Part shown: piece after piece, positions 11,375 to 28,733 of the stretch | How the letters are laid out: each line of letters starts with the position of its first letter | Numbering within the stretch: position 1 is the first letter of the stretch | Origin: a virus | Strand: one strand, 5' to 3' | IMG/VR virus record: IMGVR_UViG_3300020420_000006 | Span: 1 to 33,244 of that record | DNA length: 33,244 nt | Position numbers and translations under genes: made by a program | The notes under the pieces: model-generated | Database searches by the model: none | Seen by the model: the letters and a program-made list of their open reading frames with translations, nothing else | Told to the model about the DNA's origin: nothing

Positions 11375-12054
11375 TATAAACCTGTTGGTCTACGGCCAGG
11401 GCCACGAGATGCAGAAGCGCTTCTTGCTTCATTCATCCCCAGCATTGTACGACGATTACCACTTGGCGTTATAGGATTAGTAGCAGAGGCAACCGTCCGA
11501 TCTGGTCTTTCTGGATCAGGGTCACGCTCCCTAGCTGCTTTTGCATTGCGTGCCGCTGTCGCTTCTCCAATAGTATTGTATCTAACACCATCGACAGTAA
11601 GGTCATCACGACCTTCCATAAGCCTACCTGTATCTGGATCGCGTGTACCAATAACATCACCACTCGATCCATACACTGGGTCTTGCCCTGCTTGCAGTCC
11701 GCGGATTAATCGCTCTGCAAAAAAGTTGCCCATAGCATTGGCAACATTCATTGTCATGATAGGTGAGCCACCTTCGGCTGTTCGATCATCAATTCGCTTT
11801 TGAATATTACGAACAGCAAGGTCACGCATCTCTGGCGTAGACGGACGCTCTCGCGGAGATGTAGCAGTTGCCTGACGAACACCAGTTGCCTTCTCTGCTA
11901 CATTCCCACGACCGCGCTCTTGCTCTGCAAACCCGGTGCCTGACATGCGAGGCTGCGGACGCCGCTCGACAAAGCCAGCCTTCAGATTAGTGGGAAGGCG
12001 ATCCGACGAATCTTTGGTGGCACCTTCCTTGGGTTCTGGAGAGCCAACACACAT
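11374..12054 (-). CDS. Disordered protein with MCV N-terminus, unknown
   Basis: A 226-residue protein, mostly polar and low in hydrophobic residues, beginning MCVGSPEPKEGATKDSSD. A middle helix (residues about 78-120, MRDLAVRNIQKRIDDR and ANAMGNFFAERLIRGLQ) is the only part that looks folded; it is followed by DPDTGRLMEGRDD and an Arg/Pro/Ser-rich tail. It starts and ends in TAATG overlaps with its neighbours. Position between terS and terL suggests a packaging or head-associated role. I do not recognise the family. Confidence 0.75.
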   Translation of the reverse strand: MCVGSPEPKEGATKDSSDRLPTNLKAGFVERRPQPRMSGTGFAEQERGRGNVAEKATGVRQATATSPRERPSTPEMRDLAVRNIQKRIDDRTAEGGSPIMTMNVANAMGNFFAERLIRGLQAGQDPVYGSSGDVIGTRDPDTGRLMEGRDDLTVDGVRYNTIGEATAARNAKAARERDPDPERPDRTVASATNPITPSGNRRTMLGMNEARSASASRGPGRRPTGL

Positions 12055-12197
12055 TACTTCTTCTTCGCTTTCATAATTCTCATTTGAAGAGACTTAGGAA
12101 GTGTCTTCTGTTTTGCCGTCAGACCACCAGCCTTTTTGGCTGCTGCTTTCTTGGGACGACCACGCTTTGAACCATAAGTTCCCGGACCCATAGGCAT
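12054..12197 (-). CDS. Very small basic protein (MPMGPGTYGSKRGRP type)
   Basis: A 47-residue protein: MPMGPGTYGSKRGRPKKAAA, then a linker and a Lys-rich helix ending KAKKK. The start overlaps the stop of the previous gene as TGATG and its stop overlaps the next start as TAATG. The N-terminal motif is one I recognise from tiny proteins in marine phage genomes; no function is assigned. The GRP-type basic motif resembles AT-hook or DNA minor-groove contacts, which is a guess. The frame is supported by both overlaps. Confidence 0.75.
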   Translation of the reverse strand: MPMGPGTYGSKRGRPKKAAAKKAGGLTAKQKTLPKSLQMRIMKAKKK

Positions 12198-12517
12198 CAG
12201 GCTTTACTCCTCTTCTTCTTCGCTTTGTTACGCTTAGAAATGGCTGCTGCCTTACGCTTTGCATCAGCCTTCGATGAAGCTCCCCACGCACGTAGCGAAA
12301 GAAGCAAACGAGTAGGACGTCCTTTGGAATCACGCTCTGGACCGGGCATCCCACCCATTCTTGCAAGGAAACTCGCACGACGCGGGTTGTCTCCTGATTT
12401 TACCGGCGCTCTTAGCTTGCCGCCTTTATAAGAAGCACGCCCTTTTGCATTGAGGCCACCCTTCGGGTTTTTGCCTGCCTTGCGAGTCCACGCCGGACTT
12501 TTGAACTTTCTAGCCAA
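12197..12517 (-). CDS. Small basic phage protein (NPKGGLNAKGRAS type), unknown
   Basis: A 106-residue, very basic protein. I chose a TTG start at 12517 (ARKFKSPAWTRKAGKNPKG follows) with GAGG eight bases upstream; a TTG at 12532 is the alternative. The blocks KNPKGGLNAKGRAS, VKSGDNPRRASFLARM and DSKGRPTRLLLSLRAWGASS are typical of a family shared by phages and giant viruses (possibly DUF6321; not verified). Function unknown. It overlaps the preceding gene by eight bases and the following start by one. Confidence 0.75.
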   Translation of the reverse strand: MARKFKSPAWTRKAGKNPKGGLNAKGRASYKGGKLRAPVKSGDNPRRASFLARMGGMPGPERDSKGRPTRLLLSLRAWGASSKADAKRKAAAISKRNKAKKKRSKA

Positions 12518-13332: not shown

Positions 13333-13506
13333 TCAACGCACAAATCGCGCACGTACCCATAAGCCGAAAAACAACAGAATCAATGCAGGCTGTAAGAAGA
13401 CAAACAGAATCAAGTTCCATGCTTCATAGCTGATGCCTGATGCAGCTTCCATCCACAGAATGACATCGACGCAGTAAAGAAACCAGTAGTTGACTTGCTC
13501 TGTCAT
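13333..13506 (-). CDS. Small membrane protein, unknown
   Basis: A 57-residue protein with a strong ribosome-binding site (AGGAGGT, five bases before the ATG). It reads MTEQVNYWFLYCVDVILWME, then a second hydrophobic stretch WNLILFVFLQPALILLFFGL, then a basic end RARFVR. Two membrane segments with a short polar link give a holin-like shape, but it is far from the endolysin. A palindromic operator candidate lies just upstream of the ribosome-binding site, so it may be the first gene of a regulated late message. Confidence 0.75.
   Translation of the reverse strand: MTEQVNYWFLYCVDVILWMEAASGISYEAWNLILFVFLQPALILLFFGLWVRARFVR
13334..13365 (-). repeat. Copy 3 of the bipartite repeat (13 bp + 10 variable + 9 bp)
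   Basis: It has the same GGCTTATGG block, a 10-base variable spacer and the GATTTGTGCGTTG block as the copy at the end of terL, again across the last codons and stop of a gene. The encoded ends share Gly-Leu-Trp. Confidence 0.55.
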
Positions 13507-13519
13507 AGCGACCTCCTAG

Positions 13520-13531
13520 TGCATATGTGCA
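13520..13531. promoter_or_regulatory. Operator candidate, TGCATATGTGCA
   Basis: One of three copies of TGCATATNTGCA, all outside coding sequence. This one lies a few bases before the ribosome-binding site of the small membrane protein gene. A TATACA-like -10 box lies about 35 bases further upstream on the minus strand, with no good -35, so the promoter is uncertain. A protein bound here could block or tune late transcription. Confidence 0.55.
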
Positions 13532-13624
13532 ACAAGCCTTTTTTAGCAGGAATGTTTGTATAGGTCCATTGCGGTGTGCCTGCCGCCTACTTTTTCCCCC
13601 CACCCCCTCTATCTACACTCGGCC

Positions 13625-13999
13625 CTAGCTTAGATCGATCGACACAGATATCTCGCCTGCGTGTAGGTGCATCATCCTGTCTGGACTCTTGAAGCCAGCC
13701 CTGTCGAGGATGTCCTTGCTTGCCTCCAGCTGGACGTACTCTGACCGTGCGCCCTGTGCCAACTGCATCACCTTTGCAGCCGCTGTCGTAGCATTGAGTC
13801 CTATCGTTTCAGATACTCTCTGCATCATATACTGTTGTACGTGTTGAAGCTTCAAAGCCTTGCTGGCTGTCACTCTCCCGGCTTCGCCCTTGGCGTACCC
13901 GGCGGCTTGCGCTGCTTCCTTGATGCTACATCCTGTTGCTACAAGCGTATCTACCAGCGCGGTCTGTTTGTCTGTCAGCTTCTTCGTTGATATGTCCAT
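13625..13999 (-). CDS. terS: Terminase small subunit
   Basis: A 124-residue DNA-recognition subunit. The ATG at 13999 (MDISTKKLTDKQTALVD) has GAGG eight bases upstream; an upstream in-frame ATG at 14032 and a longer reading to 14362 run into the GC-rich hairpin island and look non-coding. The N-terminal half has the small-terminase helix-turn-helix pattern: LTDKQTALVDTLVATGCSIK, then EAAQAAGY and a second helix. The C-terminal half may oligomerise. It selects phage DNA for cutting by the large subunit. It stands about 2.9 kb from terL, with small genes between. Confidence 0.88.
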   Translation of the reverse strand: MDISTKKLTDKQTALVDTLVATGCSIKEAAQAAGYAKGEAGRVTASKALKLQHVQQYMMQRVSETIGLNATTAAAKVMQLAQGARSEYVQLEASKDILDRAGFKSPDRMMHLHAGEISVSIDLS

Positions 14000-14575
14000 C
14001 TTATGTGCCTCGGGCCTTGCCCTCGGGTTCATACCCCCCCTGCAATCCCCCCCATTGCTACAACCGCCAGAACGCTGTGTCAACGCACATTGCCTTACGG
14101 CGGCTGCTTCGCAGCGGCGGGATGCGGCGCGGTCGCTTGGTCGCGAACGCCTTACCCGCGATATGTGCGCGAGAACACCGCGCCACAATTCCCTGTGGCG
14201 CTGTCCCGCTCGGGCCGCTCGGGCCACACAACACCTATCCACACGGCAGCGCAGGTCCGACTCGCGTCGGGCTGCGCTGCCTGACCACAAACGCCCTGCA
14301 TCCCCCCGCCCCATCCCTCTGCGGGATGGGGTCAAGGCGCGACCGTGCAGTGGCTCGGTCACACCTTGATCCGCGCGGTATCGAGTGTGTCACTGTCTGT
14401 CGTGCAGTCCGCGCGGACGGCCGCGCCCCACGTTGCGGGGCGCAAATGGTCAAGTCCAAAGGCACGCTGCGCCTTTGAACTTGAGGGGGCAGTGCGCCCG
14501 TGGTCATTTCCAATGGTGTAGTTGGAGATAACCTCCACCTGCAACACTTCAACAACACGATCTTGGGAGATCAAA
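14000..14575. other. GC-rich divergent intergenic island with a hairpin array
   Basis: It separates the leftward and rightward blocks. Within 300 bases there are: GCGCCACA/TGTGGCGC (14180-14201); a 10-bp stem GGCAGCGCAG/CTGCGCTGCC topped by CCGAC/GTCGG (14245-14281); CCCCATCCC/GGGATGGGG (14309-14331); GACCG/CGGTC (14341-14360); the palindrome GTCCGCGCGGAC (14407-14418); GCGCCCC/GGGGCGC (14423-14443); and CAAAGGC/GCCTTTG extended by CAAGT/ACTTG over one mismatch (14451-14483). A 9-bp tandem repeat GCTCGGGCC lies near 14208. Bases 14033-14053 carry C-runs. Open frames here lack ribosome-binding sites and look like artefacts of high GC. It could be a replication origin, a packaging site beside terS, or a structured RNA leader. 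Confidence 0.7.
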
Positions 14576-15115
14576 ATGACTCAGAAACTCACAGACCACA
14601 TCACTGACCTGTACATCGACAACTACGACGTTGGCTCATTCGACGACGAACGGAACATGTATCAGTCAGACGGCACCACCCTAAACGTCAAGTACAACAT
14701 GGGTGACAAGTACCTGCTTGGTGGGCGCTGCGACCAAGCAGCCTACGCTCTGACTGCGGCCAAGGATTGGTTCGACACCGCCGAAATGCGGTGCCATCAG
14801 GCCAACGAGGATCACGGTCCTCAATCACTGCGCGCGCAACGCGCACAGCTTGACCTGAGCAAAGCACAGGCCAAGCTGGCCAATGCCCAGATGTTCTTCG
14901 AGATTGACACAAACCTCTTCTACACTTTCACAGGTGTCATCTGGGGAGACGGTAACGTCACGCTCGACAACGGACGTCAATGGTGGATCGAATACAAGGA
15001 GCAGATGCGCGGAGGTAACACCGACGCTGCGCCTACCGCCAAGGCGCTAAAAGATCGCAAGAAGCTCCTCAAGCAACGTGCGGCTGACGCATCCACGGCA
15101 GCAGGCGTTCACTAA
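14576..15115 (+). CDS. First early protein, unknown
   Basis: A 179-residue acidic protein with a GGGAG ribosome-binding site six bases before the ATG. It begins MTQKLTDHITDLYIDNYDVG. The middle (residues about 50-115) is a long helix rich in Ala, Gln and Lys, probably a coiled coil; then a WGDGNVTLDNGRQWWIEYKE segment and a basic tail. The codons are visibly richer in G and C at third positions than the late genes. It has its own terminator just after the stop, so it may be expressed alone and early. No family recognised. Confidence 0.8.
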   Translation: MTQKLTDHITDLYIDNYDVGSFDDERNMYQSDGTTLNVKYNMGDKYLLGGRCDQAAYALTAAKDWFDTAEMRCHQANEDHGPQSLRAQRAQLDLSKAQAKLANAQMFFEIDTNLFYTFTGVIWGDGNVTLDNGRQWWIEYKEQMRGGNTDAAPTAKALKDRKKLLKQRAADASTAAGVH

Positions 15116-15123
15116 CTCCCACA

Positions 15124-15161
15124 GCGGGGGGCTTCGGCCCCTCGCTTCTTCTTTCTTCTTT
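15124..15161 (+). terminator. Intrinsic terminator with C(UUCG)G tetraloop
   Basis: GCGGGGGGC, loop TTCG, GCCCCTCGC: nine pairs with one G-U, closed by the very stable C(UUCG)G loop, followed by a pyrimidine tract TTCTTCTTTCTTCTTT. It begins nine bases after the stop of the first early gene. The 184 bases from here to the next gene hold another small inverted repeat (AGCAGG/CCTGCT near 15186) but no gene I can support. Confidence 0.85.
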
Positions 15162-15345
15162 CCCCTTAACCCCACTGCCACGCACAAGCAGGTCGGCCCT
15201 GCTGCGCACCCCCGAACCCCACCCGGCAAGTGCCACACGACGAGCAAGGTGCCTCACTAAACAACCTGCAACCCGGGGGGTGACGCGCTCCTTGGCTGCG
15301 ATTTCTTTGATCAAATTCATTTCATTTTGAAAACGGAGTAACCTG

Positions 15346-15537
15346 ATGTCTCAGTTTAGTTTTCGTGAATACTATTTGCTTGTGCGGAAACAAAAGACCG
15401 CACAACTCGAACAAATCCTCAACACCCCACGGATGAACGCACGCCTGACACGCAACCATATGGAAATCATCAGACTTGTTCTGCGCCAGCGTGAGCGTAA
15501 GTTGGGTATCTTTGCTGAAAAGGAGACAACTACATGA
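15346..15537 (+). CDS. Small early protein, unknown
   Basis: A 63-residue basic, helical protein, MSQFSFREYYLLVRKQKTAQ at the start. A CGGAG site lies eight bases before the ATG. Its stop overlaps the next start (ATGA). No motif is recognised. Its place at the head of the replication block fits a host-takeover or regulatory role, but nothing in the sequence shows it. Confidence 0.7.
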   Translation: MSQFSFREYYLLVRKQKTAQLEQILNTPRMNARLTRNHMEIIRLVLRQRERKLGIFAEKETTT

Positions 15538-15827
15538 GATCACGGGAAGATTATCTCGAACTAAAACTCAACTCAATCATGTCTGTATTACACAGGCACA
15601 TGGATGAGCTTGAACAGTTGCAGCTTGCTCGACCTGTTGAGTTTGCAGAAGTCCTTCTACGTCAAAAGCTGCTGCGTGAAATCATCAATGCAATCAGTAG
15701 TGTCGATGACAAATACGGTGATATCGTTGATTGCAGCAATGACTGTAACTACTCAGACATTACGAACGGTGAGTGTGAATGCTTCAACCGAGAGCAAGAT
15801 GAAATCGAATCGAGGTGTCCGGTATGA
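15534..15827 (+). CDS. Small early protein with Cys-rich tail, unknown
   Basis: A 97-residue protein. Residues 1-60 look like a helical hairpin (DYLELKLNSIMSVLHRHMDE, then a second helix RQKLLREIINAIS). The tail has five cysteines (67, 71, 81, 83, 95) in an acidic setting, which could bind a metal. It overlaps both neighbours by four bases (ATGA), so it is coupled to the DnaA-like gene that follows. Confidence 0.7.
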   Translation: MRSREDYLELKLNSIMSVLHRHMDELEQLQLARPVEFAEVLLRQKLLREIINAISSVDDKYGDIVDCSNDCNYSDITNGECECFNREQDEIESRCPV

Positions 15828-16318
15828 TCGATCAAGGCAGACTGATTGCACAGATTGTACTTGGTGTTTGCGAACTACGTAACTGCCAAGCCAACAGCAT
15901 CCTCGCACCACGTCGCCACAAGGAAGCGATGTACAACAGAATGTTGGTGTATTTGATTGCTCATGATTATTGCCAACTATCATACTCTGCTATTGGTAGA
16001 GTATTGAACCGGGATCACACCACGGTAATACATGGTGTGAAACGTGCGGTTGATGAATACGAAACCAACCGCGACTTTTGTAAGGACTACATCCAACTCA
16101 CACAGGAGGTCAGATTATGGATGGAACAACAACTCTCAACGACTTCGACTTCCCCGTCGAACTCGTTCCACTCTCGTGTCTTACAAGCGATGGACACAAT
16201 ATCAACGTACCCGAGAACATGTCCCGCGCCCTCATACGGCCAGATACAAATGACGTACTCGGTGTCCATGGTTCCAAGTACAGAATCACCACGCACAGTC
16301 AGGTCGTTGACACGGTAG
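15824..16318 (+). CDS. Stand-alone DnaA domain IV-like DNA-binding protein
   Basis: A 164-residue protein. Residues about 5-98 match the pattern of the DnaA C-terminal DNA-binding domain: helices with ILAPRRHKEAMYNRMLVYLI, then the turn LSYSAIGRVLNRDHTTVIHG with the DnaA signature RDHTTV (63-68), then a closing helix. There is no AAA+ ATPase domain. It may bind DnaA boxes or related phage sites, to help start phage replication or to interfere with host initiation. The last 67 codons overlap the next gene in another frame and read as a Ser/Thr/Pro-rich tail, so the functional part probably ends near residue 100. Confidence 0.8.
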   Translation: MIDQGRLIAQIVLGVCELRNCQANSILAPRRHKEAMYNRMLVYLIAHDYCQLSYSAIGRVLNRDHTTVIHGVKRAVDEYETNRDFCKDYIQLTQEVRLWMEQQLSTTSTSPSNSFHSRVLQAMDTISTYPRTCPAPSYGQIQMTYSVSMVPSTESPRTVRSLTR

Positions 16319-18593: not shown

Positions 18594-19199
18594 ATGGCAT
18601 ACAAACTTGTTGATGATGTCATCAACCATGACGTTGGCGATGCTATTGCCAAACTCGTTCTCATTGCACTCGCTCGTTTTGCAAATCAAAACAACCAGTG
18701 CTTCCCCAGCCTAGCAAAAATTTGTGAAGTCACTCATCTTTCTAACGCTACCGTGTGTAGAAAGTTGAACTGGCTTGAACAAAATGGATTTGTTTCACGT
18801 GAAACATCGAAAGGTGTCTCAACGCGATACACCCTACGTGTCTCACAGAGAGACCAAGTAGTCTCAGAGAGAGACACTAAGCTGTCAGTAAGCAATACAA
18901 AACATACAATACCGGATGAGTGGGTAGCATCGAAGGAGTTGCGTAACTCCATCAATGCTAAACTCAAATTGGAGGTCGACCATGACTATGAAGAAACTAG
19001 ATTCCGTAGCTGGAACCAAGCTCACGGCAAGAAGCTCACAGATTGGGACGCAGGCTACAAGCTCTGGTGCAATCGTATTGACCCAGAAAGAAGCCCAAGG
19101 AGCTTTGGAAGTATTATCCCAGCCAGATCGTCAGCCAAGCGGCACCAACCTCAATCTTCTTTCTTCTCTCGCGCAGCACGGAGTCTCACTGGAACCTGA
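18594..19199 (+). CDS. Replication initiation protein with winged helix
   Basis: A 201-residue protein. Residues about 1-84 form a helix_turn_helix_36-type winged helix (IALARFANQNNQCFPSLAKI, then THLSNATVCRKLNWLEQNGF, then a wing RYTLRV). A variable linker follows, then RFRSWNQAHGKKLTDWDAGY and KLWCNR (about 150-175), the aromatic motif found at the C-terminus of phage initiators and DnaT-like helicase-recruiting proteins. It probably binds an origin and brings in host helicase. GGAGGTC lies about ten bases before the ATG. The last 73 codons overlap the next gene in another frame. Confidence 0.75.
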   Translation: MAYKLVDDVINHDVGDAIAKLVLIALARFANQNNQCFPSLAKICEVTHLSNATVCRKLNWLEQNGFVSRETSKGVSTRYTLRVSQRDQVVSERDTKLSVSNTKHTIPDEWVASKELRNSINAKLKLEVDHDYEETRFRSWNQAHGKKLTDWDAGYKLWCNRIDPERSPRSFGSIIPARSSAKRHQPQSSFFSRAARSLTGT

Positions 19200-21395: not shown

Positions 21396-21769
21396 GTCAG
21401 TATGACGACACGGATCGTGGGGCGGCATTCCCGCCTCGCGAGAACCAGCAGATGATTCTGTCTGGTCCAATCAATGACAACGGCGAGGACTCTCGTGTCG
21501 CCGTTGTCAAATCAATGCTGCCTGATGGCCGGGTTATCTTTGACCTGTACCAGAAGGTCGGCACCTTGTTCGACAATGAGTCGGAGAAGCCCAACGCACC
21601 GCACTTCACCGGTCCATGGAAAGGTCGGCGGGTCGCTGCTTGGAAAGCAGAAAAAGACGATGGCACTAAATACATGCAGCTTCGTCTGTCAGACCGCATG
21701 GCAAAAGAACAGCCAGCAGTCCACGAAACTGAAGCCACCCCGCTTCCGGCCGATGACATCCCGTTCTAG
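21392..21769 (+). CDS. SSB-like protein with acidic DDIPF tip
   Basis: A 125-residue protein. I chose the TTG at 21392, with TGGAGG five bases upstream and overlapping the previous stop; an ATG at 21380 is the alternative. Beta-strand segments (RVAVVKSMLPDGRVIFDLYQ, then GRRVAAWKAEKDDGTKYMQL) suit an OB-fold or DUF736-like barrel. The last residues ADDIPF copy the acidic tip by which bacterial SSB proteins recruit partners. With an exonuclease and an annealing protein upstream, a role as the phage single-strand binding protein is likely but not proven. Confidence 0.6.
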   Translation: MSQYDDTDRGAAFPPRENQQMILSGPINDNGEDSRVAVVKSMLPDGRVIFDLYQKVGTLFDNESEKPNAPHFTGPWKGRRVAAWKAEKDDGTKYMQLRLSDRMAKEQPAVHETEATPLPADDIPF

Positions 21770-21890
21770 GCCGTACGCCGCCGCACTGCTCTCTACAAAG
21801 CGAGTGCGGCGGCGATCACGCTTCCGGCAACGAACTGCCTTAGTTATACTCGCTGCCCTTGTAGCAACCTTTATCCTGATTGGAGAGTAG
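21753..21890 (+). CDS. Possible small membrane protein
   Basis: A 45-residue reading frame: MTSRSRPYAAALLSTKRVRR, then RSRFRQRTA and a single hydrophobic stretch LVILAALVATFILIGE. A basic stretch followed by one membrane segment is a believable topology, and the frame ends one base before the next gene. Against it: no ribosome-binding site, and a 12-bp perfect inverted repeat lies within it, which may be the real content of this gap. Confidence 0.4.
   Translation: MTSRSRPYAAALLSTKRVRRRSRFRQRTALVILAALVATFILIGE
21776..21814 (+). other. Strong hairpin after the SSB-like gene
   Basis: CGCCGCCGCACT and AGTGCGGCGGCG form a perfect 12-bp stem; inner GCT/AGC can add three pairs. No T-run follows, so intrinsic termination is unlikely. 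It could mark an mRNA processing or stability point, or be a byproduct of codons in the overlapping small reading frame. Confidence 0.5.
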
Positions 21891-28692: not shown

Positions 28693-28733
28693 AGTTTTCT
28701 CCTATCATGCAGCGCATATGCTATCCACGCACA

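Follow-up and report, generated by a model that had tools for sequence, protein, structure and literature searches.

Evidence for a structured RNA on the late strand beside the terminase small-subunit gene of a phage genome

The locus and its genes

The window analyzed here is the whole of IMG/VR virus record IMGVR_UViG_3300020420_000006, a stretch of 33,244 bases. Its terminal 77 bases are identical at both ends, and the genome is therefore circular or circularly permuted and essentially complete. The minus strand encodes TerS, TerL, and other structural proteins. Early/replication genes run on the plus strand between 14576 and about 22316, among them those for a DnaA C-terminal-domain protein, an O-like replication initiator, a RecE-like exonuclease, and an Erf-like annealing protein. 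The DnaA-related product (15815-16318, plus strand) carries the C-terminal DNA-binding domain (Pfam Bac_DnaA_C; E value, 1.5e-13), and no ATPase domain was found in it. There are no tRNA or tmRNA genes in the genome. Among isolates, Pelagibacter phage EXVC031P Hodr is the nearest, with 65% identity in TerL and 56% in TerS.

A preliminary description of this DNA placed an array of hairpins at the divergence point between the two transcription blocks and next to terS, and both placements hold: terS lies on the minus strand at 13625-13999 (Pfam PF03592 [Terminase_2]; E value, 4.5e-9; PHROG 2538), and the early genes begin on the plus strand at 14576. The first early gene (14576-15115, plus strand) encodes a protein of 179 amino acids from a lineage-wide family that is predicted to be all-helical (AlphaFold pLDDT, 85) and whose gene adjoins the island in other clades too. 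Searches for this product returned no Pfam, PHROG, isolate-phage, or significant PDB match. It was considered as the RNA-binding partner of the island and set aside: the helical model, though confident, has no significant match in the PDB, and neighborhood is the sole argument for that role. The leader of this gene contains a small hairpin, TGGAG-ATAAC-CTCCA (14523-14537, plus strand; found by eye), and at that position relatives have hairpins of other sequence (by eye). Directly after the gene there is a terminator-like hairpin with a T-rich tail (15123-15146, plus strand).

Reality of the hairpin array

The hairpin array is real and exceeds chance. All seven helices corresponding to the seven inverted repeats described earlier are present between 14180 and 14483, and the structured, GC-rich island is slightly larger than first noted, at about 14100-14520. 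Its GC content is indeed elevated, at 0.69 in 14100-14505 versus 0.47 for the genome and 0.54 to 0.56 for the two flanking genes. The 304 bases from 14180 to 14483 contain five nonoverlapping perfect inverted repeats with arms of at least 7 bases, compared with 0 to 2 in 200 dinucleotide shuffles and 0 to 3 in 217 genome windows of the same length. When both strands of this interval were folded against shuffled sequence, as had been proposed, z scores were −6.2 for the plus strand and −8.1 for the minus strand, and no shuffle folded equally well. The minus strand folds better because A-C mismatches in the two longest hairpins on the plus strand become G-U pairs on the minus strand. The last hairpin, described as a 12-bp stem with one mismatch, corresponds to 14450-14484; read on the plus strand, the mismatched position is A-C, whereas on the minus strand it is G-U and the stem runs to 16 continuous pairs.

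A sliding scan of the genome in 150-nucleotide (nt) windows placed two of the three lowest z scores in the island. The lowest of all (−6.9, minus strand) belongs to a strong hairpin elsewhere, CGCCGCCGCACT...AGTGCGGCGGCG, at about 21757-21815, which spans the stop codon of the gene ending at 21769.

The island contains no conserved protein, in agreement with its description as gene-free, and a coding function was rejected on the 1-base and 5-base gaps among the homologous islands. The preliminary description had named two outcomes that would speak against it, a protein conserved in one frame across relatives and a lack of conservation of the stems; both were tested, and neither occurred. The GC skew, which it had suggested profiling, undergoes no sharp switch at 14.3 kb.

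Architecture of the core

The minimum free energy fold of the minus strand delimits a core of about 223 nt (14283-14505), in which P1 closes around helices P2 to P6. P1 is a long-range stem between GACCAC (14500-14505) and GTGGTC (14283-14288), extended inwards. P2 (14450-14484) and P3 (14420-14445) are each capped by CGC-NNN-GUG. P4 (14369-14418) has arms at 14409-14418 and 14369-14378 with a loop region of 30 nt between them, P5 (14333-14368; UCAAGGUGUGACC...) contains two invariant U-G pairs, and P6 (14309-14331) has 9 pairs. All coordinates refer to features on the minus strand. P2 and P3 are twins, being the only hairpins in the genome with a CGC-NNN-GUG cap and at least 6 pairs.

A P7 hairpin of 10 perfect pairs (14245-14281, minus strand) adjoins the core, and its membership of the same RNA is uncertain. 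Further GC-rich hairpins (e.g., 14177-14204) continue on the minus strand through 14100-14244 up to the late promoter; these are similar in the relatives L220 and L255 and different in L003 and L004.

Homologues and covariation

Relatives were collected by a TerS search, which yielded 80 related viral contigs, and by a scan for the conserved promoter motif, which yielded more. A clearly homologous island is present in L003, L004, L220, and L255. A covariance model built from five sequences also finds L005 (E value, 2e-8) and L310 (E value, 7e-8), and a pattern scan adds L317; in these three, P2, P3, and a closing stem are kept, and P4 and P5 differ. In all eight genomes, the RNA is flanked by the first early gene on one side and the terS late promoter on the other, and every viral contig matching the P2/P3 pattern (7 of 7) does so upstream of terS. 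The covariance model, run over 1.3 Mb of related loci, revealed no further family. Several other matches were discarded. GTDB genome contigs that fit the P2/P3 pattern had no covariance-model match, the short-motif pattern scan mostly hit unrelated phages by chance (L315 and L316 were inspected and judged to be such cases), and weak opposite-strand matches of the model (e.g., 14242-14373, plus strand; E value, 1.8e-6) are mirror images of palindromic stems.

The stems are conserved with compensatory changes in the aligned relatives. The consensus of the five-sequence alignment on the late strand has 74 pairs with 93% of cells paired, and 23 of these pairs are changed on both sides yet remain paired, compared with 11.8 ± 2.3 in shuffles and 1 to 5 when partners were slid. 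The whole core is available in five sequences only. L003 and L004 closely resemble each other, which makes the number of independent changes smaller than these counts suggest. For P2 and P3 together, seven distinct sequences gave 97% paired cells, 10 double-changed pairs (5.6 ± 1.4 in the control), and a covariation of 0.38 versus 0.10.

The individual helices contribute unequally. L220 and L255 retain P1; in L003 and L004 (CGGACG/CGTCCG) and in L005, inspection by eye shows a comparable closing stem that differs in sequence. Among seven distinct sequences, P2 has 98% and P3 95% of cells paired, each with 5 pairs changed on both sides, and the G-U pair of the cap is invariant in both (14 of 14 cells). 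P4 is paired in 100% of cells in five sequences, with 3 pairs changed on both sides. In P5, TCAAGG/CCTTGA has become TGAAGG/CCTTCA in L003, L004, and L220. P6 has 4 pairs changed on both sides and is partly absent from L003 and L004. Loops and junctions that are invariant across the family comprise CGC-NNN-GUG, CTTGACC, and GATSAAGGTGT.

Evidence for the strand

The consensus folds at −97.5 kcal/mol on the late strand versus −74.7 kcal/mol on the opposite strand. In a separate strand test, helices were defined by Watson-Crick pairs only and interior non-Watson-Crick cells were counted. The core has 16 interior G-U cells (in 6 pairs) versus no A-C cells (sign test, P = 0.03). Outside the core, four other alignments run in the same direction and one carries no information; the core and these four together give 18 G-U versus 1 A-C pair, or 18 versus 4 when the promoter-near stretch is added. 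That stretch, 14100-14280, runs in the opposite direction (0 G-U versus 3 A-C interior cells), and it is not claimed for the same RNA because the late-strand wobble bias is absent there. The proposition that the late strand is the more stable one in all relatives was rejected: it is favored by raw energies (65 of 79) but not by z scores, the raw preference being due to base composition.

Both marks of a structured RNA are therefore found here, namely, helices with compensatory changes beyond the controls and a strand-specific wobble, the latter from few independent pairs (6). As far as comparison of sequences can tell, an RNA fold on the late strand is under selection.

The late promoter and the G runs

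Between the island and terS there is a putative late promoter (14055-14089, minus strand), consisting of TGTGCGTTGACA as the −35 part, a spacer of 17 nt, and TAGCAA. The same arrangement, with a spacer of 17 to 18 nt and a −10-like hexamer, occurs in 79 nonredundant related sequences, and in nearly all relatives it lies between the RNA and terS. The motif ATTTGTGCGTTG(A/C) recurs upstream of late genes at 13342, 9253, and 6066 (minus strand), with a variant at 28733; together these sites probably serve as late promoters of the phage. The −10 region is followed at once, just before terS, by the element GGGGGGG-ATTGCA-GGGGGGG (14034-14053, minus strand). Two runs of six or seven G residues separated by about 5 to 7 nt are found in the 79 relatives, although the search pattern itself required G runs; the twin runs may adopt a G-quadruplex or have some other role.

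No promoter was found by a strict sigma-70-type scan of 13400-15400, and neither that scan nor inspection by eye recognized one for the RNA itself. The 3′ end of the RNA is not marked by a clear terminator. The island hairpins lack U tracts. Terminator-like hairpins precede the late promoter immediately in 10 of 79 relatives, compared with 3.9% of control positions, which is a weak excess.

The same position in other clades

Few relatives carry the RNA of the window, but about 40 to 50% of the 79 upstream regions have z scores below −2 at the same place. The clade of L063 has a long rod there with 18 double-changed pairs, a count made without a shuffled control, and in the isolate Hodr the position is occupied by a rod of about 170 nt, with z scores of −5.0 and −5.15 on the two strands. 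Other clades are thus structured differently at this position, and the sequence found in the window is therefore not needed across the lineage. On the plus strand, the base of the Hodr rod (L082, 6115-6451; about 12037-12373 of OQ414635) pairs with the first early gene's ribosome-binding site, and a plus-strand leader function or translational control is also possible for this rod. Contigs L007, L048, L055, L067, and others start close upstream of terS, a few hundred bases away at most, as seen by eye; contig ends near terS possibly come from assembly breaks at hairpins or from strain variation.

Interpretation

We favor, with a probability of roughly 0.55, the interpretation that the island encodes a separately transcribed, protein-binding, structured noncoding RNA on the minus (late) strand. 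Transcription would begin near the first early gene and run leftward toward terS, and the transcript would be separate from the terS mRNA because the conserved promoter follows the RNA before terS. The RNA would probably act by binding protein, and P2 and P3 are the probable sites, since their cap is shared by the two hairpins and unique in the genome and since they belong to the part kept in all eight genomes. An effect on RNA polymerase in the early-to-late switch, for example, is a guess. The suggestion of a structured leader RNA made in the preliminary description thus stands in part: the compensatory changes and one-strand G-U pairs support a structured RNA, and the late promoter before terS weakens the leader part.

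If the RNA were a cis-acting leader, it would form the start of a leftward transcript that continues through terS and the late operon of 25 kb; its hairpins would act on the very RNA polymerase that had made them, by antitermination, or would regulate the operon in another way. The RNA does share its strand with the late operon, which it directly precedes in every member, and its most conserved part, two adjacent stem-loops with a short linker, recalls the put RNA of HK022. The strongly conserved late promoter in between, however, would leave most late transcripts without the RNA, and similar promoters further down the operon lessen the need for one long antiterminated transcript. We consider such a leader rather unlikely, and it is mainly the intervening promoter that leads us to rank a separate RNA above it. 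In another reading, the island is an insulator: any stable hairpins might part divergent early and late transcription by blocking read-through or interference, with folding kept and sequence free to change. The different hairpin sets at the same place in other clades, the long rod of Hodr, and the slight enrichment of terminator-like hairpins ahead of the late promoter are in keeping with this idea, which is nevertheless improbable given that invariant loops and junctions within the family of the window would be superfluous for an insulator and that the island hairpins have no U tracts.

It is more improbable still that the island acts as DNA, with cruciforms at the early/late boundary serving as a replication origin or packaging (pac/cos) site, both of which the preliminary description had raised. 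Terminases of other phages recognize sites at or near terS, which the island adjoins; several contigs of relatives end, by eye, just upstream of terS, and the hairpins are stable as DNA too (z score, −4.9). Yet mismatches in the core are G-U pairs on a single strand, a property for which DNA would not be selected, and the lack of a sharp GC-skew switch at 14.3 kb also speaks against a DNA element. Origins of the lambda type consist of iterons bound by an O-like initiator and usually lie inside its gene. Iteron-like repeats, GTGTCTCA...GAGAC, spaced at 21 to 24, are found at 18814-18875 inside the O-like initiator gene, and they are the likely origin; no iteron family exists within the island. 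An origin at the island is less likely because of these repeats, and the strand asymmetry points to RNA rather than a DNA cruciform.

A wider proposal can be put forward tentatively, and we hold it to be less probable than the reading for the window itself. An aquatic lineage of short-tailed phages may keep one locus, at the early/late divergence beside terS, for a fast-evolving structured RNA that does the same job by its structure. The RNA would be multibranched in the clade of the window and rod-like or otherwise closed elsewhere, including in Hodr, and the job might be, for example, to prepare the RNA polymerase of the host for the early-to-late switch or to block one of its defenses.

Phage annotation is usually confined to proteins, and here a probable folded RNA lies at the main regulatory boundary of the genome. 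The lineage that carries the locus consists of widespread, mostly uncultured phages. In Hodr, an isolate is available whose TerS is related and whose genome is also structured at this position, which makes transcription and function directly testable.

Comparison with known RNAs

The hairpin cluster is most likely a folded RNA of a sort not reported before. Rfam 15 gave no matches at the gathering threshold in the window and in 12 related loci, and when E values of up to 5 were allowed, the sole match in the window was a weak one to tfoR (15046-15154), which falls outside the island. A search of openly licensed papers found no described RNA at such a locus.

The put RNA of HK022 is a cis-acting antitermination RNA of about 70 nt within the operon that it controls. 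In the RNA of the window, too, a pair of neighboring stem-loops stands where a phage transcription unit begins, but this RNA is larger and multibranched, and a further promoter lies between it and the operon. Packaging of the phi29 type uses an ATPase and pRNA rather than a TerS/TerL terminase. Like pRNA, the RNA described here is a structured phage RNA in which the sequence varies and the fold is kept, and its gene adjoins a packaging gene; it was not assigned to this class, as the phage has both TerS and TerL and no Rfam model matched. The rods of the L063 clade and of Hodr resemble 6S RNA in being long imperfect duplexes, whereas the RNA of the window is multibranched, and no 6S match was obtained from Rfam in any clade tested.

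GOLLD and ROOL RNAs are about 660 to over 800 nt long and often lie near tRNA islands (PMC12286853). They share with the present RNA a phage origin (GOLLD and ROOL being found also in prophages), a noncoding, multihelix nature, and recognition through comparative genomics. Membership of these classes was rejected on size (above about 650 nt), tRNA neighborhood, and model match: the core here measures 223 nt (about 225 to 400 nt overall), the genome has no tRNA genes, and Rfam returned no match. Structured phage RNAs without an assigned function are a known kind, as GOLLD and ROOL illustrate; the RNA beside terS matches no Rfam model and departs from them in size, neighborhood, and fold.
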